A stretch of DNA of 64,000 nt from Allorhizobium ampelinum S4. Its GTDB lineage: Bacteria > Pseudomonadota > Alphaproteobacteria > Rhizobiales > Rhizobiaceae. A program made the translations under genes and the position numbers. The notes under the pieces were generated by a model that saw only the letters and a list, made by a program, of their open reading frames with translations, did no database searches and was not told where the DNA came from. Every line of letters begins with the position of its first letter. Position 1 is the first letter of the stretch. The stretch spans positions 124,001 through 188,000 of the forward strand of contig NC_011982.1 of assembly GCF_000016285.1 (NCBI RefSeq), written 5' to 3'. Of the stretch, positions 1,585-48,906 are shown in pieces.

Positions 1585-2352
1585 ATGAGTGAGAAAAGCG
1601 TCGAGGGCGCACAGGTTATCGGCAAGTCGATCGCATTGCTGAAGTTCATTTCCGCGGCGGGATCAGATGGCGCCAAGGTGAAAGACATCGCGGCCGCCTT
1701 GAATATGAGCGTGCCGACGATCTACCGCCTCGCGAGAGCATTCGAGAAAAACGGATGGCTCGAGCGGCTCGATCATAAGATGAGTCTCAGACTCGGCATT
1801 GAACTCTTTGCTCTCGGCGTCAAAGCCGCAGACGCTGCAGGCATCCGGTCTATAGCCCGTCCTGCGCTGGTTCGCATCAGCGAGGAGGTGGGAGCTACCG
1901 TCTTCCTGATGTGCCGCAACGATCATCATGTCATCGTGGTTGATCGCGTATGGGCCGGCCAGAATATCTCCACCCTCACAGATAACGTCGGGAGCATGGT
2001 GCCCATGGGGGTGGGCGCGGCCTCTATCGCGATCATGTCCACACTGGACCAAGGCGACGTTGAAGCGCTCACCAGGGCGAACGAACCTTCCTACGAGCGT
2101 TACGACCTCACGCGAGCCGTGATCGCTGCCACAGTGTCCGATGCCAGAGAGCGTGGTTACGCCGAGACCCAGTCAACTCTGATTGCCGGTCTTTCCGCTC
2201 TTTCCATTCCTGTGAGAAACTTCAACGGCGTTTCCACAACAGCGTTAAGTGTGAACCTGCCGACGGACTTCCTGACCGCCTCGCGCCGGACCCACATCGT
2301 CGAATTGTTGAAAGCAGAGGTGGACAGCATCGAGAAGATTGTTCGAAGCTGA
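1585..2352 (+). CDS. IclR-family transcriptional regulator
   Basis: A 255-residue protein of the usual IclR length. Residues about 10-70 form the winged helix-turn-helix (VKDIAAALNMSVPTIYRLAR, then a wing ending in LRLGIELFALG). Residues about 80-250 form the GAF-like effector domain with typical segments such as VATVFLMCRNDHHVIVVDR-like and ISTLTDNVGSMVPMGVGAAS. The ATG at 1585 follows a GGGAG ribosome binding site. It lies between the divergent HyuA-like gene and the downstream ABC transporter genes and probably regulates both in response to a small molecule of the pathway. The ligand is unknown. Confidence 0.9.
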   Translation: MSEKSVEGAQVIGKSIALLKFISAAGSDGAKVKDIAAALNMSVPTIYRLARAFEKNGWLERLDHKMSLRLGIELFALGVKAADAAGIRSIARPALVRISEEVGATVFLMCRNDHHVIVVDRVWAGQNISTLTDNVGSMVPMGVGAASIAIMSTLDQGDVEALTRANEPSYERYDLTRAVIAATVSDARERGYAETQSTLIAGLSALSIPVRNFNGVSTTALSVNLPTDFLTASRRTHIVELLKAEVDSIEKIVRS

Positions 2353-2466
2353 GCGTTTGGTCCCGCACCCGCGCCTCTCATGTCGTTAACCCGAAGACCG
2401 TGCCTCAATTTTAAATTCTAAATATCGTAATATTTGAGAGCCAAAAATATTAAATAAGAGAATTTA

Positions 2467-2495
2467 TTGACAGCGACTTGAATCTTGTTAATTCT
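2467..2495 (+). promoter_or_regulatory. Candidate promoter of the ABC transporter operon
   Basis: A consensus -35 hexamer TTGACA (2467-2472) lies in AT-rich DNA about 110 bp upstream of the first permease start. A -10 matching the consensus at ideal spacing is not obvious (AATTCT at 2490). A short palindrome, AAATAT-CGTA-ATATTT (2420-2435), lies just upstream and could be a regulator site. Confidence 0.35.
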
Positions 2496-2580
2496 GATCT
2501 CGCTCGCAGTAGCTGAAGCTAGATGCGTATCAGAACTCGCATAGGCCAAGGCCTAAAGCGTGTCAGGGGAGCAGGTCTTA

Positions 2581-3522
2581 ATGTTATTGTATCTCGCGAA
2601 GCGAATGTGCTTTGCCGTTTTCACTTTGATAAGCGTTCTGACGCTCGTCTTTCTCATGGTCCGAGTGCTGCCCGGCGATCCGGTTCAGATGATACTCGGC
2701 GATCAGGCCAGCCCCGAGAGCATCGCCGCGATGCGTACGCGACTTGGGCTCGATCAACCGTTGCTCGTTCAGTACGGCCATTTCCTGCTGAATGCGCTCA
2801 AGGGTGACCTTGGCACATCGATGGTCTCAGGACGCCCTGTGACCGAAGAAGTCATGTCGGTGTTGCCATATACATTGGAGCTGACATTTGCCGGACTGTC
2901 GCTCGGCGTCGTCTTCGGTGTTCCGGCAGGCGTATGGGCAGCCGTGTATCGAAACAGACCCGCGGATTACATTATCCGCTTCGTTTCACTGCTTGGCTTG
3001 TCACTTCCCGGCTTCGTATCGGCGATCGTACTGCTGATCGCATTTGCGATTAAGCTCCGCTGGTTCCCTGTCATTAGTGCAGGGACTGGCGAGGGTATCG
3101 GCGACCGTCTTTGGCAAATGGTGCTGCCTGCCGTATCTCTTGCTCTGATCATGATGGCCTATGTCACGCGCGTTACGCGGTCGGCGATGCTTGAAGTCTT
3201 GAGTCAGGACTTCGTGAGAACGGCACGAGCCAAGGGTGTGCACCACAGCGCCGTCATCTGGCGCCATGGTCTTGGAAACTGCCTTGTTCCGATCACGACA
3301 ATTGTCGGCCTTTATCTGGGCATCCTGATCGGTAACTCGGTACTGACCGAAATCGTCTTCTCCCGGCCAGGCCTTGGAAAACTGATCCTGACCGCCCTGA
3401 GCCAGCGCGACTATACGCTGCTGCAGGGGATGATCGTTGTCTACACCTTTATCGTGGTTGTCGTGAACCTTGCGACCGACCTTACCTATGGCTTCCTCGA
3501 TCCCAGGGTTCAATACAAATGA
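2581..3522 (+). CDS. Peptide-type ABC transporter permease (DppB/OppB family)
   Basis: A 313-residue integral membrane protein. It opens with a hydrophobic first helix, followed by the DppB/OppB signature VFLMVRVLPGDPVQMILGD. The EAA loop region reads DFVRTARAKGVHHSAVIWRH. The C-terminus YGFLDPRVQYK is typical. A GTG at 2560 also opens the frame, but the ATG at 2581 has a well-placed GGGGAG and is preferred. The stop overlaps the next permease by 4 bp (ATGA), so the two are translationally coupled. It forms half of the membrane channel for a di/oligopeptide-like or opine-like substrate. No periplasmic binding protein gene is seen within the window. Confidence 0.92.
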   Translation: MLLYLAKRMCFAVFTLISVLTLVFLMVRVLPGDPVQMILGDQASPESIAAMRTRLGLDQPLLVQYGHFLLNALKGDLGTSMVSGRPVTEEVMSVLPYTLELTFAGLSLGVVFGVPAGVWAAVYRNRPADYIIRFVSLLGLSLPGFVSAIVLLIAFAIKLRWFPVISAGTGEGIGDRLWQMVLPAVSLALIMMAYVTRVTRSAMLEVLSQDFVRTARAKGVHHSAVIWRHGLGNCLVPITTIVGLYLGILIGNSVLTEIVFSRPGLGKLILTALSQRDYTLLQGMIVVYTFIVVVVNLATDLTYGFLDPRVQYK

Positions 3523-4400
3523 CAAGCTCCAACGTAACGCTAAAGCGCTCCGAGAGCCGGCTCGAAAAGACCCAAGCCGTCATTCGCCGGGTCAACTTCT
3601 CCACCTGGGCAGGTTTGCTCATCGTCGTTCTCCTCGTTCTGGGTGCGATATTCGCTCCACAACTGTCGCCTTATCCGCCCGCAAAACAGAACATCGTCGA
3701 CCAGCTCGCTTCGCCGAGTGCTGCCCACATCTTTGGTACCGACCAATTCGGCCGAGATATCTGGACCCGCATGCTCTACGGGGCGCGCTACTCGCTGATC
3801 ATCGGCTTCCTGGCCGTTGTGGTTGCCATGGTCATTGGCACGTTCATCGGAATGATTGCAGGTTTCAGGGGCGGCCGTCTCGACATCGTCTTGATGCAAA
3901 TCATGGACGTCGTTCTGGCATTCCCTTCGCTCATTCTGGGCATCGCACTCGTTGCGCTTATGGGTGCGACAACGACCAATATCGTTGCCGCGATTGCCTT
4001 TACTTCGATCCCGGCCTTTGCCCGCGTCGCCCGCGCTGCGGTCATTACCCAGCGCGACCGCGAATATGTGCAAGCCTGCCGCGCGATGGGCTTTTCTTCA
4101 AACCGAACACTCTATCGGCATATCCTTCCAGCCATACTTCCCGAAATTATGGTTATGGCTTCTCTCTGGATGGCCAACGCGGTCAGAACGGAAGCCTCTT
4201 TGGCCTTTGTCGGCCTTGGAATCGCTCCGCCGGCTCCGACATGGGGCGGAATGGTGCGCGACGGCTTTGAAAACATTCTCAGCTCGCCGCACCTTGCTCT
4301 GTTTCCTAGCCTTGGCATCCTTCTCCTCGTCCTGGCTTTCAACCTCATGGGCGATGGTCTTCGCGATCTCATCGATCCGCGTTTGAAGGATGCTTCCTGA
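3519..4400 (+). CDS. Peptide-type ABC transporter permease (DppC/OppC family)
   Basis: A 293-residue partner permease. It has a cytoplasmic N-terminus, a membrane helix at about 30-50, and the DppC hallmark segment HIFGTDQFGRDIWTRMLYGA. The EAA motif lies in REYVQACRAMGFSSNRTLYRH, and the C-terminus LMGDGLRDLIDPRLK is standard. The start overlaps the end of the upstream permease (ATGA), and its TGA stop overlaps the ATPase start (TGATG), giving a tightly coupled operon. It pairs with the DppB-like protein to form the inner-membrane pore. Confidence 0.93.
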   Translation: MTSSNVTLKRSESRLEKTQAVIRRVNFSTWAGLLIVVLLVLGAIFAPQLSPYPPAKQNIVDQLASPSAAHIFGTDQFGRDIWTRMLYGARYSLIIGFLAVVVAMVIGTFIGMIAGFRGGRLDIVLMQIMDVVLAFPSLILGIALVALMGATTTNIVAAIAFTSIPAFARVARAAVITQRDREYVQACRAMGFSSNRTLYRHILPAILPEIMVMASLWMANAVRTEASLAFVGLGIAPPAPTWGGMVRDGFENILSSPHLALFPSLGILLLVLAFNLMGDGLRDLIDPRLKDAS

Positions 4401-6190
4401 TGTCCGAGCACGCTGTACTTTCAGTCAAAAATCTCAAGATCTCATTCGGCAGCAAGCCGATCGTCCACGATCTCAGCTTCGATATTGCCGCCGGCTCGAC
4501 CCTGGCGGTTGTCGGTGAATCCGGATCGGGAAAGAGCGTCACCTCACTGGCGATTATGGGCCTTCTGCCCGAAGGCACCGCCAAGGTGAGCGGGTCGATC
4601 CGCCTTAATGGCAAAGAATTGCTCGATCTGCCTGAAGCAGAGATGCGCCAGATCAGGGGTGGCAAGATCAGCATGATCTTCCAGGAACCGATGACGTCAC
4701 TCAATCCTGTCCAGCGCGTCGGAGATCAAATCGCCGAAGCCATCCGGATTCACCGGGGATTGAAGGGGCGGGGCCTTCGCGACGCGGTTCTGGAAATGCT
4801 TAAAAAGGTCGGTATCCCCGACCCGGAACGCCGGATTGACAACTATCCGCACATGTTCTCCGGCGGGATGCGCCAGCGCGTGATGATTGCCATGGCTCTG
4901 GCTTGCGATCCCGCATTGATCATAGCCGACGAGCCGACCACCGCACTTGACGTTACCGTTCAGGCGCAGATCCTTCAACTTTTGAAAGATCTACAGCAGG
5001 ACACGAAGACCGCCGTCTTGTTCATCACGCATGATATGGGCGTTGTCGCCGAAGTCGCCGATCAGGTCCTGGTCATGCGAGGCGGTCACCAAATCGAAGC
5101 AGATTCGGTCAACAAAATCTTCACCGAGCCGGAAAGCGAATATACCCGGATTCTGATCGAAGCAGCACCCTCGATTGCGGGTAAAATCGATATCGAAAAT
5201 GCGGCAGCGTCAGAACTCGACGTCCTTCCGCTCAACTGCAAAGGTGACAAGCCCCTTCTTGAGGTGCGTGATCTCTCGGTTAGATTTGTCCATACCGGCG
5301 GGTTGCTTGGCCGCAGACTGGGCCATGTCCATGCTGTGGAAGGTGTCTCGTTCGCGATCGGTAAGGGTGAGACGCTCGGCCTTGTCGGGGAGTCGGGCTC
5401 CGGGAAGTCAACGATCGGCAAGGCTATCATCGATCTCGTATCGCGGCATGGCGGCACGATCACGGTCGACGGCAACGTGATCGACTATTCCAATCCTAAA
5501 AGTCTGGCGCGCTTGCGCCGTGACGTCCAGATGATCTTCCAGGATCCATTTGGGTCGCTCGACAGTCGACAGACTATTGGCTCGGCGATTATCGAGCCGA
5601 TGAAAGTACACGGGATTGCAACCGGCAAAGCGCTGACCGAGAAAATGGAGTGGCTGCTCGACAAAGTCGGTATCTCTCCCGATCGCGCCAAGAGCCTGCC
5701 CCATGAATTCTCCGGCGGCCAGCGCCAGCGCATCTGCATCGCGCGGGCGCTCGCAATGGCACCGAAGCTGATTATCGCCGACGAAGCTGTTTCTGCTCTC
5801 GATGTTGCCGTCAAAGCGCAGATCATCGAGCTTATGATGAACCTGCAGAAGGAATTCGACATTTCGTATCTGTTCATCAGCCACGACATGGCCGCCGTAG
5901 AGAAAATCTGTGATCGGGTTGCCGTTATGTACTTTGGTGAACTGGTTGAAATCGGCAGCAGGGATGACGTAATCGGGCGCCCTGGCCATGCCTATACCCA
6001 GCGCTTGCTTTCCGCCATTCCGATTACCCATCCGGATCAACGGCTGGATCGACCGGCGGCAAAGCGCGAGGCGCCGCCACCACGCAGCCCGATGAAGCCC
6101 ATCGGTTTCGCACCGGAACCAGCGCTTTGGAATATGAAAAGCGACGGGCATTTCGTCCGCCGCACCGCGCCATTGCTCAGCCCTCGGTGA
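4400..6190 (+). CDS. Fused double ABC transporter ATPase (DppD-DppF type)
   Basis: A 596-residue protein with two complete nucleotide-binding domains in tandem, equivalent to DppD fused to DppF (GsiA-like arrangement). Each half has the Walker A GESGSGKS. The first half has signature FSGGMRQRV and Walker [14 protein letters not shown]; the second has [12 protein letters not shown] and [12 protein letters not shown]. The His switches are in LFITHDMG and LFISHDMA. The second half has EAVSALD where the canonical sequence is EPTSALD, a mild change that keeps the catalytic Glu. It energises the two upstream permeases, and its stop overlaps the next gene start. Confidence 0.93.
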
Positions 6191-7530
6191 TGCCACTCAT
6201 GCACGCTATTCAGGAACTCGCAAACTTCGCGGCTACCCTTCCGGCTGGTAGCCTTCCACAATCCGCACGGCAAGCTTGCGCGGTACTCATAACAGACCTT
6301 CTCGCAGCGAGTGCGGCGGGATTCAACTCAGACCTGGCTATCGCGGCCAGAAAGGCGGCTTACGCCGCCTATGGTCAAGGTACGGCCGATGTCTGGTTGA
6401 CCGATCGAAGCCTCTCTATCGTCGGTGCTGCTATGGCGAATTCCGCAGCAGCAAGTGCTCTCGATCTCGATGACGGTCACCGTGGCGCAGCCGGGCATCC
6501 CGGGGCCGGGATTATTCCGGCTGTTCTGGCCGTCGCACAACAGATAGGCGCGAGCGACGAGGAGATCTTCGAGGCAATTGCGGTTGGCTATGACATCGCA
6601 TTGCGCGTTGCCACTGCTCGCCCGACGGAAACGATCGACACTTATATCAGCGGTCGTTGGGTGAACTTCGGTGTCGCGGTAGGCGCAGGGCGTCTCCTGA
6701 AACTGACCACTTCCCAGATGGCCAATGCAATTGGGATCGCCGGCGCCGAAGGCCCGATAGGTATCAACGAAGAGGTCTCTAAGGCCGACGGCAACACCGT
6801 CAAGGAATGCATTCCGCCAGCTGTCGTGACAGGGCTGACAGCGGCCTTCCGCGCTCAGGCTGGAGCGACCGGTCCGCTTGACCTTCTGGATGATGGGAAG
6901 CGCTACACGCGCGCGGTTCTTACCGGCGATCTCGGCATTCATTGGTGGCTCGAAGATTGTTATTTGAAGCCCTACGCATGCTGCCGCTACATGCACGCGG
7001 CCATCGACGCCATACTTGAACTACGCCGTCCAAGTGCTCCTATAGTAAGCCTTCGCATCGAGACATTCGCTGAAGGGCTGAAACTGTCGAACGAGCGTAA
7101 CCCTGCGGGCCTGGAAGGTGCGCAGTATAGCTATCACTTCAGTTGTGCCCTTGCAGCGATCCACGGTGGACGCGCTCTGCAGCCGGTCGATCCCGTTTAC
7201 CTCACGGACCAGGCCGTTCTTGAGCTATCAGCGCGTACTGTTTTGCAGGCCCATCCGGATTTCGCGTCAAGCTTTCCCAAAGGAACACCTTGTCGAGTCA
7301 TCATGGATCAGGGCCATGGTGAAGAAGTCCTCACTGTTCTCCACCCGCTTGGTGATGTTGCCAATCCAATGTCCTACGAGCAGGTGAAAGAGAAATTCGA
7401 ACAGCTCGGTTCGCAGGTGCTGGACGAAGAGCGGCGCGCCCGGATCCTGGCAGCACTTGATCAATTGCCTGTCAGAGGCTTCAAGCCGTTGTTCGACAGT
7501 CTTGTCGCACTTTCCAATCACTCCAGTTAG
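6190..7530 (+). CDS. MmgE/PrpD family protein
   Basis: A 446-residue protein of the MmgE/PrpD family (2-methylcitrate dehydratase and cis-aconitate decarboxylase relatives). Visible family segments are ALDLDDGHRGAAGHPGAGII near residue 90, followed by VGYDIALRVA and the Cys/His-rich KPYACCRYMHAAIDAILEL near 265. The frame is open further upstream, but the ATG at 6190 overlaps the ATPase stop (TGATG), giving the expected length, and is preferred. It is translationally coupled to the transporter, implying that it acts on the imported compound or a close product. Many members have no assigned substrate, so the exact reaction is unknown. Confidence 0.85.
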   Translation: MPLMHAIQELANFAATLPAGSLPQSARQACAVLITDLLAASAAGFNSDLAIAARKAAYAAYGQGTADVWLTDRSLSIVGAAMANSAAASALDLDDGHRGAAGHPGAGIIPAVLAVAQQIGASDEEIFEAIAVGYDIALRVATARPTETIDTYISGRWVNFGVAVGAGRLLKLTTSQMANAIGIAGAEGPIGINEEVSKADGNTVKECIPPAVVTGLTAAFRAQAGATGPLDLLDDGKRYTRAVLTGDLGIHWWLEDCYLKPYACCRYMHAAIDAILELRRPSAPIVSLRIETFAEGLKLSNERNPAGLEGAQYSYHFSCALAAIHGGRALQPVDPVYLTDQAVLELSARTVLQAHPDFASSFPKGTPCRVIMDQGHGEEVLTVLHPLGDVANPMSYEQVKEKFEQLGSQVLDEERRARILAALDQLPVRGFKPLFDSLVALSNHSS

Positions 7531-7824
7531 GGGAAACGAGGGAACTCGCGTGAACATCAAACCGCGACGTATCGGCGCGCAGAACCAAGCACGACTCGGG
7601 CTTTCAGTTCAATGGCTCCATTTCTCTTTGTCCGCTTGTCACCGAGACGGCGGATTTTGAAAATTTTCGGCGATGAGGCGACTTCCTGTGAGGTCGCTTT
7701 ATCGACTTGAGCGGTTGGCTCAACCGTCTGCGCAGGCCGGTCGCTCTGTCGGGCAAGGGTATTGCATGAGAAGGCCGGCAGGTTCGACACGCGGCAATCA
7801 CCACAGGAAACTACGGAGGAAGAG

Positions 7825-8874
7825 ATGAGGGCCTGGCTGAACAAAACACATCACAGCAGGTTGGAAGCCGTCGAGATCGCAACGCCTGACGCGACCGGGA
7901 CACAGGTCGTCGTTGATGTGACGCACTGCGCAGTTTGCCATTCGGACCTCCACACTTGGCAAGGAGTGACTGACTACGGAAGCCGTGGCGTTCTGCAGCG
8001 ACCGCAGCCTGAAACCCCTATTGCCATGGGCCATGAAATCGTGGGCAAGGTTTCCGCCCTTGGGCCGGACGCACAGGGCGTGAAGATAGGCGATCAGGTA
8101 ATTGTCTACCCATGGCTTGGCTGCGGGAAATGCAACGATTGCCTCAACGGTCGCGACAATATTTGTGCAATCGGTAGCCGTAGCCTTGGCTTCATGCAAC
8201 ACGGCGGCTTTGCCGATAAGGTTATAGTGCCTCACTCAAAATACCTCGCCTCGACCGGCAACATCGACCCGGCTTTGGCGGCAACATACGCTTGCTCCGG
8301 CCTGACCGTACGGTCGGCAATTCGCAAGATAATGCCACTCGCGCCTGAAGAGCTCGTCGTCGTGATCGGTGCGGGCGGGCTCGGCCTGCAAGCCGTCGCC
8401 ATGCTGAGGGCGCTGACGAATAACAAGATCCTCGTCCTCGATAAATCTGAGGCTAAGCGCGATCTCGTGTTGGGGGAAGGCGCGGATCATTTCGTGGTTC
8501 TCGCCGACGAGGACACCGCAGCCAGGGTTATCGAGATCAATGGTGGCAAGGTCAGCTCCGTGCTCGATTTCGTCAACAACTCGGAAACATCCGGGCTGGC
8601 CTTAAGTATCCTGCGCAAGGGCGGACGGACTATCCAGGTCGGCCTTTACGGCGGTGAACTGGTCGTCCCGCTCTACACATTGGCTGTGACCGGGCTTTCG
8701 ATTATCGGCAGCATCACTGGAACGCCGGAAGACCTCAAAGATGTCATCAGACTGGCTGAAGAGGGCGTTCTGAAGCCGATCCCTTTGACACGGATGGCTA
8801 TGGCTCAAGTCAATGAAGCGATGTCGCGTCTTGAGCAGGGCCGGGTCGACGGCCGGATCGTACTGATTAACTGA
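7825..8874 (+). CDS. Zinc-dependent alcohol dehydrogenase (MDR family)
   Basis: A 349-residue medium-chain dehydrogenase. Catalytic zinc ligands are in HCAVCHSDLH and GHEI. Structural-zinc cysteines are in GCGKCNDCLNGRDNIC, and the NAD(P)-binding glycine motif is GAGGLGLQAVAML. The start at 7825 follows a strong GGAGGAAGAG ribosome binding site; an upstream in-frame start at 7762 lacks one. It is separated from the MmgE/PrpD gene by about 290 bp with no clear gene, so it may have its own promoter. It probably oxidises an alcohol intermediate to an aldehyde for the downstream aldehyde dehydrogenase. The substrate is unknown. Confidence 0.9.
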   Translation: MRAWLNKTHHSRLEAVEIATPDATGTQVVVDVTHCAVCHSDLHTWQGVTDYGSRGVLQRPQPETPIAMGHEIVGKVSALGPDAQGVKIGDQVIVYPWLGCGKCNDCLNGRDNICAIGSRSLGFMQHGGFADKVIVPHSKYLASTGNIDPALAATYACSGLTVRSAIRKIMPLAPEELVVVIGAGGLGLQAVAMLRALTNNKILVLDKSEAKRDLVLGEGADHFVVLADEDTAARVIEINGGKVSSVLDFVNNSETSGLALSILRKGGRTIQVGLYGGELVVPLYTLAVTGLSIIGSITGTPEDLKDVIRLAEEGVLKPIPLTRMAMAQVNEAMSRLEQGRVDGRIVLIN

Positions 8875-9033
8875 CCGCAGCTTCGAACGCAGCGGCCCGC
8901 GGCTTCTTTCATGCTTCGCCATCCGAGCGAAGAGGAGAGTGGTCGGAAGGCTGGAATCCAAATTTTTACGATCGACGGCCTACCCCTGATTTCGGGACGG
9001 CCGGCCACTACAATCAAACGAAAGGGTACTGCA

Positions 9034-10464
9034 ATGGCACCTCGTCCTAGCATCTATATCGACAATACTTGGCAGCCGGCCACCGGAGGCGATACGTTCT
9101 GGGCGGTGAACCCGTCCACCGAAGAAGCATTTGCCGAGTTTCAGATTGCGTCCGCAGAGGACGTCGACCGCGCCGTGAAGGCCGCGAAAAACGCTCTGCC
9201 GGCATGGAGCGCCTCCGAAGCGAGCATGCGTGTCGATGCACTTAGTCGGCTTCTCAAGGCTTACGTTGCTCGGACCGAAGACCTGGCAAGGGCGTTGGCA
9301 GCCGAAATGGGTGCTCCGATCGATTTCGCTCGTACAAGCCAGATCGGGGCGGGCGCGAACCATCTGCGCGCCTTCATCAAGGCCCTGCAGGAGTTCCATT
9401 TTGCCGAGCCCGCTCTCGTCGGGAGCGAAAATCAGGAAATTTTGCGTGAAGCCGTTGGCGTGGCAGCGCTGATCACGCCATGGAACTGGCCGCTTAATCA
9501 GATCACCCTGAAGGTCGGCGCAGCCTTGGCTGCAGGTTGCACTGTGGTCCTTAAGCCCTCGGAGGTATCACCGGTGTCCGGTCAGATCTTCGCCGAGATC
9601 GTCGAGGCTGCCAATCTGCCGAAGGGGGTTTTCAACCTCGTGCAGGGCACCGGCGCCGTGACCGGGGCTGCCATGGTTGCCCATCCAGACGTCGATGTCG
9701 TCTCCTTCACAGGTTCGACGCGCGCCGGTATCGCGATTTCGTACGCCGCTGCGCCGAGCATCAAGCGTGTATCGCTCGAACTCGGCGGGAAGTCTCCCAG
9801 CATCGTCTTCGCTGACGCTGACGTCGAAAAGGCCGTTCGCTGGACCGCAAACTTCTGCTTCAACAACACTGGGCAGTCCTGCAATGCTTCGACTCGTATG
9901 CTGGTCGAGCGCAGCGTCTACGACCGGGCGGTGAAGCTCGCCACCGAAGTCGCAGAGGGCATCGTCGTCGAGAGAGCCGATCTTCCCGGAACCCATATCG
10001 GGCCGCTTTCTTCCAAGGTCCAGTACGACAAGGTCCTGAGCTGCATCGACCAGGCTGTTAGCGAAGGCGTCAACCTGATCACCGGAGGTCGCGGCCGGCC
10101 CGAGCACCACAAACGCGGATACTTCGTCAGCCCGACCGTATTTGCGGGCGTGACCCCAGAACATTCGCTATTCCGCGATGAAGTGTTCGGACCTGTTCTC
10201 GCCATCACACCTTTCGATAGCGAGGAGGAGGCGATCGAGCTCGCAAACGACACCGTGTATGGCCTTTCCGCCTACATTCACACGGAAGACGCCGCGAAAG
10301 GCAAGCGCGTGGCCAGGAGCGTCCGGGCCGGCATGGTTCAGCTCAACGGGTCCGCGCGCGCGCCTGGCACACCCTTCGGCGGCTACAAGCAGTCCGGCAA
10401 TGGCCGCGAAGGCGGGCGTTGGGGCATCGAGGAATTCCTCGAGACGAAGCTCGTTGCGGGCTGA
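9034..10464 (+). CDS. NAD(P)-dependent aldehyde dehydrogenase
   Basis: A 476-residue ALDH superfamily enzyme of normal length. The cofactor and Asn region is PWNWPLNQ, the glutamate motif is LELGGKSPSIVFADAD, the catalytic cysteine lies in FNNTGQSCNASTRM, and the late motif EVFGPVLAI is present. The ATG at 9034 is chosen because homologues begin close to RPSIYIDNTWQPA; the frame is open from 8911, which would add unlikely residues. It lies 159 bp after the alcohol dehydrogenase on the same strand. It would convert the aldehyde from that enzyme to the acid. Substrate not determinable. Confidence 0.9.
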   Translation: MAPRPSIYIDNTWQPATGGDTFWAVNPSTEEAFAEFQIASAEDVDRAVKAAKNALPAWSASEASMRVDALSRLLKAYVARTEDLARALAAEMGAPIDFARTSQIGAGANHLRAFIKALQEFHFAEPALVGSENQEILREAVGVAALITPWNWPLNQITLKVGAALAAGCTVVLKPSEVSPVSGQIFAEIVEAANLPKGVFNLVQGTGAVTGAAMVAHPDVDVVSFTGSTRAGIAISYAAAPSIKRVSLELGGKSPSIVFADADVEKAVRWTANFCFNNTGQSCNASTRMLVERSVYDRAVKLATEVAEGIVVERADLPGTHIGPLSSKVQYDKVLSCIDQAVSEGVNLITGGRGRPEHHKRGYFVSPTVFAGVTPEHSLFRDEVFGPVLAITPFDSEEEAIELANDTVYGLSAYIHTEDAAKGKRVARSVRAGMVQLNGSARAPGTPFGGYKQSGNGREGGRWGIEEFLETKLVAG

Positions 10465-12595: not shown

Positions 12596-12794
12596 ATCGC
12601 GCCCCAAAAGTGAGAGCGCAAATCATCTCAAACCAGGCTTGCCCGAATCTGCCAAAGTAGTGCTAAGCAAATCTACGCTCAAAATGCCCCGCAAGCGGCT
12701 TCGTTCAATCCCAGCTGATTCTGGACACCGCGGAAACGCTCTAATAATTTCAGCCGGCGAAAAGTCCAAACGGCTGTTTAACGTAATTGAAAGT

Positions 12795-12819
12795 TGGCAG
12801 GATATATTGGTGTGTAAAC
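12795..12819 (+). repeat. T-DNA left border repeat
   Basis: 25 bp beginning TGGCAGGATATATTGGTGTG and ending TAAAC. It matches the Ti border consensus (TGRCAGGATATATTG, then a G/T-rich spacer, then GTAAAC) throughout. VirD2 would nick the complementary strand between the third and fourth base. Confidence 0.92.
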
Positions 12820-13200
12820 ATTTGTGCCATAATGAATCGACTTGGATTTGATAGGTGAAACTTGTTAATAGTTTCTCTAAACTTTTATCACCAGCCAAAT
12901 ACCTATTGTGCTTTTAGTATATTATCAAACAATATTGAATTATAATTAAATATTGTTTGATTATGTTCGAGCAGATTTTTTTCATAAAGCCTCCTATAGT
13001 TTCGTTGGAAAGTTGATATTATTATGCTAAAGCACATTTGTTGATAAAAATTAAAAGTTATTAAAATGCTTTTCCTTTATGTAAAGCTTTTATTAAAGCC
13101 ATAATTTGCGGCCCAATCAGCGGACGCAATTATCGCATTTTCGCTTATTAAAGCTTATGCGTTGATCAGAACGGTTGGCATTAATATTCAACGTTTTATC
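12820..13200. other. AT-rich T-DNA left end and plast gene 5' region
   Basis: No gene is seen. A perfect 12-bp inverted repeat, TCAAACAATATT (12925-12936) and AATATTGTTTGA (12949-12960), brackets a 12-bp loop. The second arm and following bases (TATTGTTTGATTATGTTC) resemble the right half and flank of the right border (TATTGTTTGGTCATGTTC). This region should contain the plant promoter of the plast gene, but no single TATA box stands out among the AT-rich runs. Confidence 0.5.
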
Positions 13201-13929
13201 ATGGAGTTTAACAGGCCAATTTTTATTCCATCTAATCTTTGTTTGGTCTTTTGCCCTGAGCAGGTGGCGATAGCTATCGAGATCGCCCTCAACTTATATA
13301 GGAAATTCGTCGAATTCGATTTGATGGAGCGGCAAAGGGAATGGGCGCGGACGGTACCGCTCACAGCAGACTTCTACTGGAGAGTGGTAGCTGGTGAGTT
13401 CTTCACAAAACCTCTTCTTGATTGCCCAGCTAAAGGGCACGTATTCCGTGAAGTCCAACTTGATAGAGCTTTGCTGTATATATACGGGCCGAGAAACTTT
13501 ATTGCTAACTACATCAAAACTCAAACGCTCTGGCGTCCCAGGAGGCAAGACATCTTAGCTTGTACAATGCCGCCTTTTAGAGAAGAGATATGCAAGCGAG
13601 AGATCCTCCGCTTGCACAATAGTTTATCTTTCGTTTCATACAATACTGATGCTGATGTGGAGTACTATGTAGCTATTCTGCCAAACCAGACGTTTACTAA
13701 GGGGCCTAGCTTTTTACTTCAAAGCAGCGGCGAATATTGTGGATTTTTCCACGCAGATGGTGAGAGAGTCAAATACGATATCATTGCTTTCGGCCGCTCT
13801 CACTTTCGCAACAGTTCTCCGAATGACGACAGTCTGTTCAACCTACGTAGTCCCCTAAGAGCAATTGAAGAGGCAGAGCCCAAAACTAAAAAGCTTAAAA
13901 AGTTCCTATCTTGCTTTAATAGCAATTGA
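13201..13929 (+). CDS. RolB-like plast-family T-DNA protein
   Basis: A 242-residue protein starting at the ATG at 13201; an upstream TTG-opened extension is irrelevant for a plant-expressed gene. It resembles RolB and the wider plast family. The core PPFREEICKREILRLHNSLS parallels RolB PYRSELALQEMLRVHN, DADVEYYVAILPNQTF parallels DLECFIAIFASSLF, and VKYDIIAFGRSHF parallels YDVVACGTTQF. Plast proteins alter plant hormone responses and growth. Codon and base use are far more AT-rich than the plasmid backbone, as is typical for T-DNA genes. AATAAA lies 65 bp after the stop. Which plast subgroup it belongs to cannot be settled by eye. Confidence 0.75.
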   Translation: MEFNRPIFIPSNLCLVFCPEQVAIAIEIALNLYRKFVEFDLMERQREWARTVPLTADFYWRVVAGEFFTKPLLDCPAKGHVFREVQLDRALLYIYGPRNFIANYIKTQTLWRPRRQDILACTMPPFREEICKREILRLHNSLSFVSYNTDADVEYYVAILPNQTFTKGPSFLLQSSGEYCGFFHADGERVKYDIIAFGRSHFRNSSPNDDSLFNLRSPLRAIEEAEPKTKKLKKFLSCFNSN

Positions 13930-13993
13930 GTTTATTGTTAATTTTGTTTGTTAAAAAGCTAGTAACTCTGTGGTGTGAAGGTTATGTATTGAA

Positions 13994-13999
13994 AATAAA
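13994..13999 (+). promoter_or_regulatory. Plant polyadenylation signal of the plast gene
   Basis: AATAAA 65 bp downstream of the plast stop codon, in AT-rich DNA. The motif is short, so its support is positional. Confidence 0.5.
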
Positions 14000-14153
14000 T
14001 TTATATTATTTCCCAGGAATACCAAGCGCAAATATTTAACATGGGAACCTTGCAGCAATGCACACGCAATATAAGTATGATTTATTACACACCATAAAAA
14101 TGAAAACGTTGCACACAATACAAAGGCATTCGCTTCACATGAGCGCCCTGCCG

Positions 14154-14159
14154 TTTATT
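14154..14159 (-). promoter_or_regulatory. Plant polyadenylation signal of the opine synthase gene
   Basis: AATAAA on the minus strand 61 bp beyond the opine synthase stop at 14220. Confidence 0.55.
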
Positions 14160-14219
14160 AAAATTTTATAAATATGGCATCATATGTATTTTTTGGATTT
14201 TTGCAACGGATGTCCGATA

Positions 14220-15356
14220 CTAGACGGTGCGCGCTCCAAAGATTGACAGTTTAGTTGGATCGAACGGCAGTGAAAGTGCGTGTAGAGCTTCGCCTCTTGC
14301 AGCCTTTATCAGCAACATGATGCTTTTCGTAACTGGAATTTTCACACGATGCGATTCGGCAATCGAACATATCATTTCCAGAGTACGGATTTCTTCTGAG
14401 AAATAGCGGTGCTGCAAGTTGTCGGGACAAGCAAAGTTGACGTTGTAGGGGAACGGTGCCAGACTGAATTCCCTCATATTCACATAGTCTGTCTTTGACT
14501 GAGTATTGCACTCTGCCAGGACAGTATCTAGCGTTATCCCCAAAGCGCCTGCAACTTTAAGACGCTCCTTGTCTGCAGCATCTATCACAGAACACACGTA
14601 GCTATTGGTGCCTTGGCCATAAAAATAAAATCGATAATCGGCACCCACACGGGATTCCAATTCCATGCGCCAACGCTCAGCGCGCTCGGTAAGCGAGCCT
14701 TCTGGATCGCGCAGCCGGCCAATATTGAGCGTCGCTGAAACTGCATGGATTATATAGTTAGAGAAAAAAAGCGAGTGGAGTGGCGAGATAACGGTTATCG
14801 AGGAGCCAAAAATCTTTGCCAGTGTCTCGCTAACTGACTTCGGCAGTTTTAAATTGCCCCCGCCATCGCGTTTCACTGGATAGCACGACACACCAAACGA
14901 AGGCAGTATCGCTTTGATGTGAACTTCGTTCCCCTGTCCGCCGACCAGCTTTGCTGTTACGGGGGAATCGTCAGTTTCTAGAATTCGTTCGCACATCAAG
15001 CGAGCTGCGTAATTGACAGTGAACCCGTGCCCGCATATTACGAGCAATGGCCTTTTCAGGACGAACTTTTCGAGATCTTGAACGAAGGCTTCGTGCACGT
15101 CAGCTCGGGTTGCAAGAACCAGAAACTTCGCTGAAGCAAGCAGATCAGCCAATTCCTCGTGTATAGTGATCTCATGCTTACCTTCGACCACGCCGCTGGC
15201 GGTTATCCCACCATGTTGGCGAATTGAAAGCAATGAACCAGGATGATTTGCTGGAGCCCACATGGCTGTTTGAATTTTCTGGCTTGAAAACCAGGCCGCT
15301 AAAGCCGTTCCAGCGTGACCGCCTCCAATGACTCCAACCGAAAGCTCAGACGCCAT
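14220..15356 (-). CDS. nos-like: Nopaline-synthase-like opine dehydrogenase
   Basis: A 378-residue NAD(P)H-dependent opine dehydrogenase, closely similar along its length to nopaline synthase. It opens with the dinucleotide fold VGVIGGGHAGTALAAWFSS (nos: VGVLGSGHAGTALAAWFAS). Later landmarks are ATRADVHEAFV, VVCGHGF-like VICGHGFTVNYAA, LFFSNYIIHAVSATLNIGRL, FYFYGQGTNSYVC and CPDNLQHRYFSEEIRTLE. It lacks the roughly 20-residue N-terminal extension of nos. Nopaline synthase couples arginine to 2-oxoglutarate reductively. The family similarity suggests nopaline, but a related opine is possible. As in nopaline plasmids, the gene is next to the right border and is transcribed away from it, with plant-type TATA and AATAAA signals. 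Confidence 0.88.
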   Translation of the reverse strand: MASELSVGVIGGGHAGTALAAWFSSQKIQTAMWAPANHPGSLLSIRQHGGITASGVVEGKHEITIHEELADLLASAKFLVLATRADVHEAFVQDLEKFVLKRPLLVICGHGFTVNYAARLMCERILETDDSPVTAKLVGGQGNEVHIKAILPSFGVSCYPVKRDGGGNLKLPKSVSETLAKIFGSSITVISPLHSLFFSNYIIHAVSATLNIGRLRDPEGSLTERAERWRMELESRVGADYRFYFYGQGTNSYVCSVIDAADKERLKVAGALGITLDTVLAECNTQSKTDYVNMREFSLAPFPYNVNFACPDNLQHRYFSEEIRTLEMICSIAESHRVKIPVTKSIMLLIKAARGEALHALSLPFDPTKLSIFGARTV

Positions 15357-15428
15357 TGTTTAAGTATTTTATTGGAATGCAATGTAATGCTTAGTTGATT
15401 GCAGTGGAGAGAAGGTTCTTCCAAGCTC

Positions 15429-15436
15429 ATTTATAG
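15429..15436 (-). promoter_or_regulatory. Plant TATA box of the opine synthase gene
   Basis: CTATAAAT on the minus strand, about 73 bp upstream of the ATG, is the spacing expected for a plant promoter with a short leader. Confidence 0.6.
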
Positions 15437-16156
15437 AGGCGCTTCCCCTCGGGCTTAAGCAAACAACATCCTCCAGACAGCAATCAAAGCAATGATAAAG
15501 AAATTTACACGTATCACGTTAATAATATTCGTTAAATAATTTGAAAGTAACGAATAAAGTGCATTCGCTTGAGTGGCACGAAAGTTACGCATAGCAATAT
15601 TCATGCTGTTATTTCCAGAATGCAATTAGATCATATGCCGCGTCGTACAAGATGCTCTCCACCGTAAAATGCGGATTATCAAGCTCAAAGCATGGGATTG
15701 AATATGTAAACGGATCACAATTTTATTATTGACCTAGAATAACGATTAAGATTACTTTATCAATATTGGTGAGCCTAGAAATAAATGTTATAATAGTAAC
15801 ATTATCGGCAGTGATATTATATTTATATATTAGATTTTTAAAAAAATAAAGAAATATTGGAGTGAAAATAAATTAGCTAACGTGGAGGGGGTGATACAAA
15901 AATATGCAAACGTATTTCACGTTCGCAGATGCAGCGAGCTTGTGCTGCGCTTAAGATCGATTAGTTAGTCAAGAAAAAGTTCTAATGAAATGGGCTTGCG
16001 AACTTAGATCAATCTGTAAAAAATGACAGACTGGCAGGATATATTGTTTGGTCATGTTCAATAGATTGTTCGAATGAGCGTTTGTTCGTCACCTCAAAAA
16101 ACCGTTGGAGCGAACTTAAAATTGGATAAAACTCAGGGCAACGTCAGCGGCCGCTA
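15437..16156. other. AT-rich T-DNA right end and flank
   Basis: No gene is seen between the opine synthase promoter and the IS630 at 16157. It contains the right border (16032). About 15720-15870 is extremely AT-rich with no recognisable feature. After the border, GCGTTTGTTCG near 16078 resembles the overdrive core TGTTTGTT in 7 of 8 positions, which is weak evidence. Confidence 0.45.
16032..16056 (+). repeat. T-DNA right border repeat (atypical right half)
   Basis: It begins TGGCAGGATATATTG, identical to the left border over 15 bp including the VirD2 nick region. It continues TTTGGTCATG instead of the usual G/T spacer and GTAAAC. The right half is therefore degenerate or replaced. It is in direct orientation relative to the left border. 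Confidence 0.75.
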
Positions 16157-17318
16157 GTAACGTGGAACTAAAGTAGGCATCATTTTATTTTGCTTCTGTT
16201 GTAACAGCGGGAGTTTGATTGATGGTCGGCAGGCAAGCGGGCTTTGTCGCTCTGAGCGACGAGGATAGAAATTTTCTTGAGTCTCAGGTGCGTCGGCACA
16301 AGGCGCCGCGCTCGCTGTCGGATCGATGCCGGATAGTTTTGCTGTGCGCGCAGGGCTTGCAGAGCAAAGATGTTGCCGAACGCCTTGGCGTCCACGAGCA
16401 CACGGTTGGCAAGTGGCGCCGCAGGTGCGTGCAGGGTGGCATTGACGGGCTGACCGACGAATATCGCGCAGGTCGGCCACGAACCGTCTCTGACGCCCAG
16501 GTAGCTGAGGTCGTCGAACGGACATTGAACACCACCCCGAAGGATGCCACGCACTGGTCTATCCGTTTGATGGCAGCCGACCGCGGGCTGTCGCACACCA
16601 CCATCCGTCGGATATGGACCGCGTTTGGTTTGCAGCCGCATCGTTCGGAGACATTCAAGCTGTCTTCCGATCCCCTGTTCGTTGATAAGGTGCAAGACAT
16701 AGTCGGCCTTTACATGTCGCCACCTGATCGGGCAGTCGTGCTATGCGTGGATGAGAAATCGCAAATCCAGGCACTGGATCGCGAGCAGCCGGTTCTGCCC
16801 ATGGCGCCGGGCATCGCCGAGCAGCGGCGCACCCATACCTATGTCCGCAACGGCACGACATCCCTGTTCGCCGCGCTCGACGTTGCGACTGGCGCGGTAA
16901 TCGGCCAGTGCTACAAACGTCACAGGGCGACCGAATTTCTCGACTTCTTGAAGCGGATTGACGCCGAGATGCCCAAGGGGCCGGACGTGCATTTGGTGAT
17001 GGACAACTATGCGACCCACAAGACGCCGAGGATCAAGGCCTGGCTCGCACGCCGCCCGCATTGGCATGTTCACTTCACGCCAACGTCAGCCTCCTGGATC
17101 AATCAAGTCGAGCGGTGGTTTGCAGAGCTGATGCGCAAGCAATTGCAACGCGGTGTCATCGTTCCACCGCCGAACTGGAAGCCGACATCGACGCGTTTAT
17201 CGCAACGCACAACGAGAATCCCAAGCCATACAGATGGGTGAAATCCGCCGGCCAAATCCTCGCCTCCGTCAAGCGATTCTGCCAAAAAACAATGAGCCGA
17301 ACTTCAGATTCCGGTGAC
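16157..17318 (+). mobile_element. IS630 copy 2, full length but transposase frameshifted
   Basis: A 1162-bp element between TA duplications (16155-16156 and 17319-17320) in a CTAG target. Imperfect terminal inverted repeats run GTAACGTGGAACTAAAGT at the left and GTCACCGGAATCTGAAGT at the right (complement). One base is missing relative to copy 3 within the transposase gene. It lies between the right T-DNA border and repABC. Confidence 0.92.
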
Positions 17319-31515: not shown

Positions 31516-32727
31516 CTATCTTCTATTTCCCTCATCTTCTTGGCTGCGTCCGTCCCTTGAACGCTTGCGAATGCTCGGCTCGGCTTCCTCATCACGGGGA
31601 CGCTTAGAATTTGGGCCCCCCTGCTGCGGGCGATCGGCTGTGGCAGGCAATCCATCCGTAGCGATGTCGGTCTGCGACGGGTTTGATCCAGGAGCCTGTA
31701 TTGACGATGTCGGACCGTCCCCGGTAACCGGTACGTCCGTGATTGCCACTCCCGCCCGAACTCTGTTTACCCTAGTCAGTTTTGCGCCTCTGTCCTCATC
31801 CTCATCACCACGAGGGCGTTTTCGATGAAGTCGTTGCTGAACGTCGTCCTCGCTTGTTGGGTGCGTGACGGATTCGATCGCCAAACCAGTACCGGAAGCG
31901 CCTTCAACATCCCGGCCATCGCCGTTCGATCCGATTCGTGCCCGGGAACGCCCTTCGGACATCGGTTGCAGATGCTCGTTTCGTTCCGGACTTTCTGGCA
32001 GGTTTTGCGGTCGCTCACCGTACGACGAATCGAAGAATTGTTCCGGTTCGCGATCGTTTTCGCCGGGCGTGAAATGTTCGAAATCAGGATCGTCGAAACG
32101 AATTTGATTGGCCTGCTGCCGCTCAAGGCGCCTATACTGGGCAAAAGTCATTGGCCGCTCGGTGATGCCGCGCTCAGCTCGCCTGGTCGCTTCCAGGACG
32201 ATGCCATGACGAAACGAAACCTTGGCCATTCTAGTGCGCAGGGCATCGTAATTCAGTTGAGGGTGGCGCCGGGATATTTTCAGCCACTTGTGTCCCAAGA
32301 GTTCGCGACGATTAACGACGACATGCAAATGTGGGTGATCGCGATCAGTGTGGAAGGCCGTAAGATAGTTGTATTGACCTCCCCCTTCGCCTGACCCGAA
32401 CGTCTCGGCTGCCCACTCGCGGCTCGCTGCATAAGCCGCTGGCTGACTTGTACCAGCAGGGAAGCTTACAATAATATGGGTGGTCAATTCCTTTTGCCTT
32501 TCCTCGTCGGGCTGACTTTCGTCGTAGGTCCCGGTTTCTTGAATCCAACTTCGGGCGAGATCGCGGATATTATCCGGTGGTACGAAAATATCGAGATGCC
32601 GTGCTGAACGCTGCAGCTCCAAGGTGCCCTTCCGGGACAGATATTCCAATTGATTAATAATTTGTTGGAGGGTCTTCGTCCCACCTCCTGGCACAATGCG
32701 GATGATGACTTGAGATCGATCGGGCAT
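31516..32727 (-). CDS. virD2: T-DNA border relaxase VirD2
   Basis: A 403-residue relaxase. It starts MPDRSQVIIRIVPGGGTKTL with the catalytic tyrosine at residue 29 (NQLEYLSRKG). The metal-binding histidine motif is in AFHTDRDHPHLHVVVNRREL. The bipartite nuclear localisation signal near the C-terminus is KRPRDEEAEPSIRKRSRDGR. It nicks T-DNA borders, stays covalently on the 5' end of the T-strand and pilots it through the VirB channel into the nucleus. It is shorter than most VirD2 proteins (about 425-450 residues), the loss being in the variable middle. It lies 26 bp after virD1. Confidence 0.96.
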   Translation of the reverse strand: MPDRSQVIIRIVPGGGTKTLQQIINQLEYLSRKGTLELQRSARHLDIFVPPDNIRDLARSWIQETGTYDESQPDEERQKELTTHIIVSFPAGTSQPAAYAASREWAAETFGSGEGGGQYNYLTAFHTDRDHPHLHVVVNRRELLGHKWLKISRRHPQLNYDALRTRMAKVSFRHGIVLEATRRAERGITERPMTFAQYRRLERQQANQIRFDDPDFEHFTPGENDREPEQFFDSSYGERPQNLPESPERNEHLQPMSEGRSRARIGSNGDGRDVEGASGTGLAIESVTHPTSEDDVQQRLHRKRPRGDEDEDRGAKLTRVNRVRAGVAITDVPVTGDGPTSSIQAPGSNPSQTDIATDGLPATADRPQQGGPNSKRPRDEEAEPSIRKRSRDGRSQEDEGNRR

Positions 32728-32753: not shown

Positions 32754-33200
32754 TCAGTGCTTCGAGGCGTCCGCCAGCATGGAGCAACCGTCAATCCTTC
32801 GCCGTGATACGGACAAAATTGAACGGAGTAAGCCATCGAGATCGGCGAACGCTTTACCGAAAGCGTTACGTTCAGCTTGAAGAGCACCCAAATCCGTCGT
32901 CGGATTTTCAGCGTAGGAGTTTAGCAGCGCGGCAATGTTGTTTGAGAGTGTTCCTATGGAATGAAGTATGGCTTCCATTTCATGACGAGTCTCTGCATCG
33001 ATCTCGAGAAAGCCGGCGATCCGGCGGACCGCAATTCTTATGGCCATGCTATCGGAAAGCCCCAGCCGGCGGGCTTGGCGGGAGAAGCTCTCATATTCGG
33101 CCGATCGCAAACGGGTACTAACAACCTTGAAACCTTCAATCGTCGAGCCTTCGCGCCGGTCGACAATGTTATCTGAGGGTGATTTTGCGCTTTGGGACAT
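32754..33200 (-). CDS. virD1: Border nicking accessory protein VirD1
   Basis: A 148-residue protein, first in the virD operon, with a GGAG ribosome binding site. The segment [20 protein letters not shown] with [20 protein letters not shown] is the ribbon-helix-helix DNA-binding region of VirD1. It acts with VirD2 as the border endonuclease, melting supercoiled border DNA. It is divergent from virC1 across a 256-bp promoter region. Confidence 0.95.
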
Positions 33201-33456: not shown

Positions 33457-34152
33457 ATGAAACTTCTGGCTTTTTGCTCGTTTAAAGGAGGCGCCGGCAA
33501 GACGACGGCGCTCATGGGCCTTTGTACTGCTTTTGCAAGAGACGGCAAACGAGTGGCTCTTCTCGACGCCGATGAGAACCGGCCTTTAACGCGCTGGAAA
33601 GAAAACGCCATACGCAGCAATACCTGGGATAGATCCTGCGAGGTGTACGCTGCAGAAGAAATGTCGCTACTTGAAGCGGCTTATGAGGACGCCGAGCTTC
33701 GGGAATTTGATTATGCGTTGGCCGATACGCATGGTGGTTCGAGCGAGCTCAACAACACTATCATCGCTAGCTCAAACCTGCTTTTGATCCCCACAATGTT
33801 AACTCCACTCGATATCGATGAGGCACTTTCGACATACCGCTATGTCATCGAACTGCTGCTGAGCGAGAACTTGGTCATTCCGACCGCAGTGTTGCGCCAG
33901 CGAGTCCCAGTGGGGCGATTAACCACGTCGCAGCGCGCGATGTCCAACATGCTGGCGAACCTGCCTGTCGTGCAATCTCCAATGCATGAGAGAGACGCAT
34001 TCGCCGCAATGAAGGAACGTGGCATGTTGCATCTCACATTGTTAAACACAACAAATGATCCGACGATGCGCCTCCTTGAGCGGAACCTCAGAATTGCGAT
34101 GGAGGAACTCGTGACAATTTCAGAGCTAATTGGCAAAACCTTGGGAAATTGA
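33457..34152 (+). CDS. virC1: T-DNA transfer enhancer VirC1 (ParA-like ATPase)
   Basis: A 231-residue ParA/MinD-type ATPase, the same length as known VirC1. It starts [20 protein letters not shown] with the deviant Walker A, then [20 protein letters not shown] and [10 protein letters not shown]. It binds the overdrive enhancer and border relaxosome and gathers T-complexes at the cell pole. The ATG at 33457 is chosen over frame extensions because it places the Walker motif as in homologues. It is two bases ahead of virC2. Confidence 0.96.
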
Positions 34153-45513: not shown

Positions 45514-45516
45514 CTA

Positions 45517-46877: not shown

Positions 46878-46938
46878 ATTCTGGCGGCTATCGCATTGTT
46901 TTATTTGGATTTTTGATGCCATTTTGCTATAAAGCGGC

Positions 46939-48600: not shown

Positions 48601-48700
48601 GCTCGTCAGATACTCGTCGGTGAGCTCATCGTGAGGCCCCAAAGGCAAAACTATCAAGCCGCTGCAAATGAAAAATCAATGGGGCGCAGACGCCGCTTAC

Positions 48701-48861: not shown

Positions 48862-48906
48862 GTGAGCGTCCGGCGAACGGATTTTTGGTGGTTCGATCTG
48901 GCGATG

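Follow-up and report, generated by a model that had tools for sequence, protein, structure and literature searches.

An intact two-gene T-DNA of the Allorhizobium ampelinum S4 tumor-inducing plasmid and a GT ladder that follows T-DNA right borders

The tumor-inducing (Ti) plasmid of Allorhizobium ampelinum S4 carries a T-DNA, called T4, that is bounded by its own borders and holds only two genes. Here, we analyze a 64,000-nucleotide stretch of that plasmid (the window; positions 124,001 to 188,000 of NC_011982.1, or C2:124001-188000 in a host genome of 6.32 Mb in 7 contigs), in which T4 occupies 3,262 bp, from 12795 to 16056. Two same-strand T-DNA borders flank just two genes: lso, of the RolB family, and lsn, which resembles nopaline synthase genes; the two are convergent. 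T4 is a genuine, intact T-DNA, described before, and the counterpart of T-DNA1 of plasmid pTiAB2/73. Specifically, passages of a 2021 paper present a fourth T-DNA of pTiS4 that has only nos/lsn-like and rolB-like genes and is close to T-DNA1 of pTiAB2/73 (PMC8554961), and passages of a 2023 paper use the name T4 for it (PMC10410297). Because T4 is already published, our result is a confirmation: we put the probability at about 0.9 that T4 is an intact, self-contained two-gene T-DNA of the S4-type Ti plasmid with the mechanism proposed below. The gain lies next to it, in a ladder of GT dinucleotides outside right borders that helps tell right from left borders.

Like the right border, the left border of T4 retains all 13 of the 13 nick-side core bases; the right border terminates in GTCATG (Table 1). 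After these two, the next best border site in the 64 kb scores 13, and in 100 first-order Markov sequences of equal length the best site scored 13 (n=10), 14 (n=73), 15 (n=16), or 16 (n=1). What identifies the right border is chiefly its uninterrupted 13-base core, together with its strand and location; overall score counts less. Across the whole 6.32-Mb genome, a 12-base border core occurs six times, five times on the Ti contig, always on the plus strand, and once elsewhere, and the border 25-mer with at most three mismatches identifies eight sites, seven of them on the Ti contig and all seven on the plus strand; the control gave 0 in both searches. The two same-orientation borders around 3.3 kb that the initial annotation of this DNA had proposed are therefore present. 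GC (guanine plus cytosine) content is 41.4% within T4, as against 57.6% in all DNA to its left and 54.4% in all DNA to its right.

Judging by their sequences, both T4 genes are intact and constrained. Compared with pTiAB2/73, lso shows 83.9% amino acid identity and a ratio of nonsynonymous to synonymous change (dN/dS) of 0.29; the dN/dS of lsn is 0.19 against pTiAB2/73 and 0.13 against pTiCA75/95. DNA identity to pTiAB2/73 T-DNA1 is 89.2% for lso and 92.6% for lsn, versus 73-77% for non-coding DNA. Among A. vitis plasmids, 12700-16200 recurs at 99.9-100% identity in four records (pTiCG78, NZ_CP056046, pTiRvVAT039, and pTi_CFBP2681). The lso gene is otherwise scarce: of 134 plasmid records with a match, only seven reach an identity of at least 80%, and the protein search returned two clusters, its own included. 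Both family assignments made earlier hold, with matches to RolB_RolC and Octopine_DH; the RolB_RolC score was obtained with a 255-residue frame that starts at a TTG, from 13162, and is annotated in some records. The open reading frame list contains no other frame of at least 120 residues wholly between the borders, and the two further frames of at least 80 residues wholly inside both overlap lso or lsn. With only lso/lsn-sized frames inside, iaaM, iaaH, and ipt cannot be accommodated, which agrees with the annotation's remark that auxin and cytokinin genes are absent. Its claim of sharp changes at the borders survives for AT content and gene families and only partly for plant signals: lsn has a TATA box, while AATAAA, although present 3' of both genes, appears at least once in 43% and 38% of shuffled sequences. 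AATAAA was rejected as a sign of plant genes, being no better than chance.

Table 1. Features of T4 and its surroundings, in window coordinates
Feature	Position	Strand	Evidence
Left border of T4, TGGCAGGATATATTGGTGTGTAAAC	12795..12819	+	19/19 defined positions; identical in pTiAB2/73
lso, RolB-family (plast) gene, 242 aa	13201..13929	+	PF02027 (RolB_RolC), E 3.3e-60
lsn (ris), nopaline-synthase-like opine synthase, 378 aa	14220..15356	-	PF02317 (Octopine_DH), E 3.1e-24
TATAAAT box of lsn	15429..15435	-	79 nt 5' of ATG; surrounding CTCTATAAATGAG identical in pTiAB2/73
Right border of T4, TGGCAGGATATATTGTTTGGTCATG	16032..16056	+	16/19 defined positions; 13/13 nick-side core bases
GT ladder, proposed overdrive equivalent	16056..16119	+	6/6 GT in phase 0 modulo 4 within 64 nt
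Right part of proposed rideopine uptake/catabolism cluster	1585..10464	+	pTiCG78 annotation; Pfam for two genes; co-occurrence with lsn
Stretch with IS630-type transposase, outside right border	16209..17230	+	PF13358; missing from pTi_CFBP2681 by alignment
virD2, border relaxase	31516..32727	-	PF03432, E 3.4e-14; annotated VirD2 in pTiCG78
virD1	32754..33200	-	PF07328, E 1e-89
virC1, ParA-like ATPase	33457..34152	+	PF07015, E 9.1e-120; CbiA/ParA domain, E 5.2e-15
virC2	34155..34763	+	PF07181, E 1.3e-126; PDB 2rh3, E 2.6e-57

T4 is one of four T-DNAs on the plasmid, which bears out the suggestion that it might be one of several. Left-to-right pairing of the borders on contig C2 places T4 at 136795-140056, T1 from 199723, T2 at 213135-217979, and T3 at 221093-224072; the right border of T1, which has more mismatches, was found in the near-identical pTiCG78 (L011:9816). 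The annotation of the T1-T3 stretch in pTiCG78 includes a vitopine synthase, a RolB-family gene, iaaH, an FAD-dependent oxidoreductase that we take to be iaaM-like, and ipt. A plasmid-wide look for further borders and oncogenes, advised at the outset, thus returns both: seven sites with at most three mismatches on the contig, and oncogenes in that stretch. The next border match within three mismatches lies about 59.7 kb beyond T4 (C2:140056 to C2:199723), and repABC and vir genes stand between (pTiCG78 annotation), so T4 is not nested in a larger T-DNA. The cognate VirD1/VirD2 are encoded on the same plasmid. The right border at 16032, with its full nick-side core and a flank of the right-border type, is a predicted VirD1/VirD2 site. 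Elsewhere in the window, two 3,009-base stretches, 45592-48600 and 57001-60009, are 100% identical and are probably copies of one insertion element.

We propose, and for cleavage and transfer infer, the following course of events. VirD1/VirD2 would cut the right border at 16032 on its lower strand. The T-strand, whose polarity leftward from the right border is established, would run through lsn and lso and stop at the left border (12795). Once in the plant cell, lso would change growth, and the lsn product would join an amine, most likely putrescine, to 2-oxoglutarate, yielding an opine, most likely rideopine. The bacterium would then import the opine through the catabolic cluster that adjoins T4. 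The GT ladder outside the right border would aid nicking, as a proposed docking site for VirC1/VirC2 and a local form of overdrive.

From its sequence relatives, lsn is probably a rideopine synthase. Passages of PMC8554961 infer rideopine synthesis by lsn, and passages of PMC10410297 group the T4 opine gene in a single clade with R. tumorigenes ris and with pTiCA75/95 and report that S4 tumors contain rideopine in small amounts. Our grouping of lsn relatives uses a 60% identity cut-off; the clade support is that of PMC10410297. Adjoining T4 on the left is a catabolic cluster that encodes an IclR regulator, an ABC transporter, an MmgE/PrpD protein, and alcohol and aldehyde dehydrogenases, and that continues beyond the left window edge. 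Relatives of lsn at 60% identity or more are present in 15 of 107 plasmid records with a match. The MmgE/PrpD marker of the cluster, at 72% or more, is present in 16 plasmid records, among them 14 of those 15, which are not 14 independent cases, several being the same strain or near-copies (AB2/73 twice and five type VII plasmids). This co-occurrence supports the rideopine assignment, short of proof. On pTiQ15/94, the synthase is 68% and a cluster gene 72% identical to their S4 counterparts; on pTiCA75/95, an lsn gene lies beside the same cluster, with no RolB-family gene annotated between its borders. A hydantoinase gene matches at 89.9% or more in 11 records. Two 150-kb A. vitis plasmids, NZ_CP081840 and NZ_CP055273, have cluster genes and no lsn relative at 60% or more. 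Finally, Rhizobium sp. B230/85 carries an lsn/ris relative that is flanked on each side by same-strand borders and lies among many insertion sequence (IS) elements; its plasmid, unnamed2 (L020), is not the one named as the Ti plasmid of the strain.

Several observations weigh against this account of T4 and its opine. The right border fits the generic 25-mer at 16/19, a score reached by 1 of 100 random sequences; TATA[AT]A was not found in the 300 nt upstream of lso; and no solved structures were found that match lsn by sequence. The record NZ_CP072159 has an lsn relative, lying in IS-rich DNA, and no cluster marker at 60% or more, and no hydantoinase match reaches 60% in the five type VII plasmids; the cluster thus varies in gene content. 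The hydantoinase gene is likewise reported missing from pTi932 and pTi1078 in passages of PMC10410297. An opine other than rideopine might also be considered, given that the lsn enzyme is identified by homology alone, that nopaline synthases are 48% identical to it, and that our comparison within S4 was limited to the Octopine_DH family among opine synthases. We regard this as unlikely: S4 has two Octopine_DH matches above the cut-off, that of T1 and lsn, plus a 57-position fragment below it; the T1 gene is annotated as a vitopine synthase in pTiCG78; lsn is found together with the putative rideopine cluster; and rideopine is reported in tumors both of S4 and of R. tumorigenes, the bearer of a same-clade gene (passages of PMC10410297).

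Rideopine thus remains the preferred product, and the other rivals concern the segment itself. Its small size, the IS-like stretches on both sides, and the imperfect distal half of the right border would suit a decaying remnant of a larger T-DNA that has lost its oncogenes and its transfer, and a reduced remnant was indeed offered in the initial annotation. The idea finds no support, as both reading frames are intact and constrained, and we judge it highly improbable: the unit of left border (LB), lso, lsn, and right border (RB) also exists on the separate plasmid pTiAB2/73; T4 keeps its 99.9-100% identity where the flanking IS-like stretches are missing, as in pTi_CFBP2681 (99.9%); and the distal half of the right border is like that of other right borders. 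Scarcely credible is the further notion that T4 forms an end of some longer T-DNA or moves together with T1. The seven contig matches do share an orientation, and read-through past a left border is conceivable, but the distance to the next border, with repABC and vir genes between, speaks against both versions; a larger T-DNA with the T4 borders inside it, named at the outset as the finding that would overturn the two-gene reading, did not materialize and is rejected.

We now turn to the right border and its flank, which were compared with other borders in 20 named Ti, root-inducing (Ri), and related plasmid records plus the window. These gave 108 sites, 66 after near-copy removal, which were divided into 27 right borders, 26 left borders, and 13 dropped sites. 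Sorting applied a GC rule first, and eight sites were then set to right by gene content, left-border pairing, or position. Sites L198 and L013 were set to left, three record-start sites without a left flank were taken as left, three (L223, L178, and L212, which resembles a right-border remnant) were dropped by hand, and 10 ambiguous sites were left out. The hand reassignments were made after the flanks had been seen and could lean toward the ladder. The GC rule alone gives 21 right, 24 left, and 18 ambiguous sites and three without a left flank, with one array-bearing right border called left. GTC at border positions 20-22, as in T4, marks 14 of the 27 right and 0 of the 26 left borders (Fisher p 1.2e-5), 4 of 7 right and 0 of 11 left in a held-out set, and 9 of 21 right and 3 of 24 left under the GC rule alone. 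All four right borders of the S4-type plasmid carry it. Damage to the T4 right border is an unlikely reading of its sequence, since the GTC ending is common among right borders. Position 3 is A in 14 of 27 right borders and 1 of 26 left borders.

The GT ladder is a feature of right borders and looks new. Specifically, in the 96 nt outside the T4 right border, six of seven GT fall at 4-base steps counted from border base 25 (binomial p 0.0013). The lag-8 identity of this flank is 0.42, a value reached by 0.45% of 2000 shuffles, and 27 of 32 bases are identical to the flank of a pTiQ15/94 right border. Perfect 8-bp arrays, with differing units, follow 6 of the 27 right borders; examples are GTGCCTTC (nine copies, pRi1724), GTTCGTCA (14 copies, pRiO132), and TTCAAAAG (20 copies, pAvCG412). 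At the T2 right border, perfect copies of GTGCATCC begin from the last border base, 11 in pTiCG78 (L011:24822; pTiCG78 217821) and nine in the window's own genome (C2:217955). The 21 right borders without arrays show the same period, with a mean lag-8 identity in the first 56 nt of 0.411 versus 0.294 in shuffles (z 8.8, 0/5000), whereas left borders give no signal (0.243 versus 0.262). Counted by phase modulo 4 over the first 32 nt, GT occurs 52, 7, 10, and 5 times in these 21, compared with 13, 12, 4, and 10 times in the 26 left borders. The signal fades past about 64 nt. No rotation of phase in 20000 matched the ladder, and phase 0 outnumbers every other class in 22 of 27 right versus 4 of 26 left borders.

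The ladder persists under stricter handling. In the combined set, removal of similar sequences (at least 50% alike) leaves 21 right borders without arrays, with GT counts of 77, 23, 20, and 12. By the GC rule alone, non-array counts are 68, 23, 21, and 7 in 18 right borders versus 22, 24, 11, and 18 in 23 left borders, and mean lag-8 identity is 0.46 outside right borders versus 0.29 inside left borders. In the held-out set, with GC classes, seven right borders give 21, 6, 7, and 5 (p 1.1e-4), or 13, 6, 6, and 5 without the pRiA4 array (p 0.022), and 11 left borders give 7, 11, 3, and 14; seven ambiguous held-out sites, kept outside the test, give 26, 3, 3, and 4. No prior description of the ladder was found in the openly accessible titles and passages searched, a scope outside which key older papers lie. 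Hansen is said to have reported, in 1992, a transfer stimulator adjacent to the pRi8196 right border, in work that may already mention repeats.

Our hypothesis is that the ladder could serve as a docking array for VirC1/VirC2, of which the classical overdrive would be one version. VirC2 of the window matches the solved chain 2rh3 by sequence, and VirC2 reportedly has a ribbon-helix-helix fold (Lu, in 2009). The proposal draws on the fact that ribbon-helix-helix proteins often bind short tandem operators. Passages of a preprint report that replacement of the native 83-bp C58 flank by the minimal 24-bp overdrive strongly lowered transformation (PMC13277942), a result that fits a long array. A competing explanation, which we hold to be less likely though deserving of weight, is that the ladder is functionless low-complexity sequence or slippage. 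Perfect arrays can indeed come from replication slippage, and the T2 copies number 9 versus 11 in near-identical plasmids. Phase 0 is not the largest class in 5 of the 27 right borders: L168 and L180 (octopine plasmid), L183 (pTiBo542), one of pTiQ15/94, and L205, the octopine-like flank of pAvCG412, which is off phase by a tie. Tested individually for the 8-base period, only 11 of the 21 right borders without arrays reach p < 0.05, so 10 fall short; the C58 right border is at p 0.74, yet all seven of its GT in 96 nt are in phase. At T4, the textbook 24-bp overdrive consensus does no better than chance (13/22, reached by 323 of 500 shuffles). Slippage would have to account for a ladder that lies only on the outer side of right borders, extends for about 64 nt, keeps its phase with border base 25, and persists after removal of similar sequences, in the held-out set, and under the GC rule alone. 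A narrower version of the docking hypothesis, in which each plasmid has one ladder unit set by its VirC2, is unsupported: pAvCG412 combines an octopine-like flank and a TTCAAAAG array at different right borders. The docking reading of the ladder treats overdrive as a phased repeat array, makes VirC1/VirC2 recognition a directly testable question, and supplies a rule that helps find T-DNAs missed by consensus searches.

Border-bounded segments also exist in a legume symbiont. Plasmid pRL7 of the pea symbiont R. johnstonii 3841 has three segments of 1.2-1.6 kb and 46-47% GC between same-strand borders (44853-46450, 47695-48938, and 53240-54574), in which five of six border cores have one mismatch and GT steps follow the right borders (L270, 43000-57000). 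The first contains a RolB-family frame (E 1.7e-18) whose TATA box and start context read TATATAAA and ACCATGG, and which has relatives in Rhizobium, Mesorhizobium, and Sinorhizobium. The border-to-border stretch recurs on S. meliloti plasmid NZ_CP088117 (85% identity over 81% of the query), and pRL7 encodes relatives of VirD2 (45%) and VirC2 (38%). These segments may be minimal T-DNAs. Should they prove functional, DNA transfer to plants extends beyond the bacteria of galls and hairy roots. There is precedent: for R. etli p42a, passages of PMC8554961 note an opine-synthase-like gene along with five border-like sequences; passages of PMC4788154 describe a pRL7 vir region that looks scrambled, report that T-DNA was not found in R. 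etli, and leave it possible in other Rhizobium strains. Among the matches listed, no published title concerns T-DNAs of pRL7.

Other border-like sites were encountered. Plasmid pRspBT04a of a bean-associated Rhizobium has LB/RB pairs at 46825-49412 and 56980-58709 (L271, 45000-60500), with no RolB-family match on the record. S. meliloti M270 accessoryB (NZ_CP021816; L022) has an lsn-like gene (48%) and fragments that match a pRL7 mini-segment. In the Rhizobiaceae genome G047, border-like sequences at C61:33444 and C61:54103 (L272 and L273) are followed within a few bases by four and seven copies of CCCTAA, a telomere-type repeat. When public genomes were scanned for the border pattern, at least 118 stretches were returned, and the 80 listed are mostly outside Rhizobiaceae; these matches are probably chance. 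RolB-family genes are present in 4 of 394 sampled Rhizobiaceae genomes, the window's own included.

We tentatively advance a general picture, one we would not yet wager on. Ti and Ri right borders would each consist of a 25-bp nick site and, from its last base, a GT-led array with 4/8-base steps that acts as a centromere-like dock for VirC2 (ribbon-helix-helix) and VirC1 (ParA-like). The octopine overdrive would be a degenerate version. The same module would bound the one- and two-gene T-DNAs of S4 (T4) and of legume-symbiont plasmids (R. johnstonii pRL7 and S. meliloti), at least one unit of which carries a RolB-family gene with plant-type signals.

Finally, T4 can be set beside known T-DNAs. 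It is the same element, with the same two genes, as T4 of pTiS4 in the passages of PMC8554961 and PMC10410297, and no difference was found; those passages mention neither the ladder nor the right-border class. On pTiAB2/73, a separate plasmid, T-DNA1 has the same order and content (LB-lso-lsn-RB, with only lso and lsn between the borders). Its left border is identical to that of T4, with homology extending about 55 bp further outward on the left, whereas on the right its border is TGGCAGGATGTATCAGATTGTAGTG and homology with T4 ends inside the border. The outer right flank of pTiAB2/73 matches the textbook overdrive at 16/22, reached by 0 of 500 shuffles, compared with 13/22 at T4. A search for an exchange on the right-border side at the nick between S4 and AB2/73 found no informative relatives of the outer flanks. 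Otten and Schmidt reportedly described T-DNA1 of pTiAB2/73, with lso and lsn, in 1998. The pTiQ15/94 record has a 3.4-kb mini T-DNA (L019, 9264-12646) with an lsn-like gene (68%) and a partial RolB-family match in the gene order opposite to T4, on a plasmid with nine border-like sites. The nopaline T-DNA of pTiC58 shares the border core, and its opine synthase is 47.9% identical to lsn at the amino acid level, but it spans about 24.8 kb between borders and contains iaaH, ipt, an agrocinopine synthase, and several RolB-family genes. The octopine-type overdrive, reportedly the subject of work by Peralta in 1986, resembles the T4 ladder in lying outside the right border, in being GT-rich, and in repeating at 4/8-base steps; the octopine/agropine plasmid borders differ from T4 in GT phase, which is phase 2 in L168 and phase 1 in L180 and L183.

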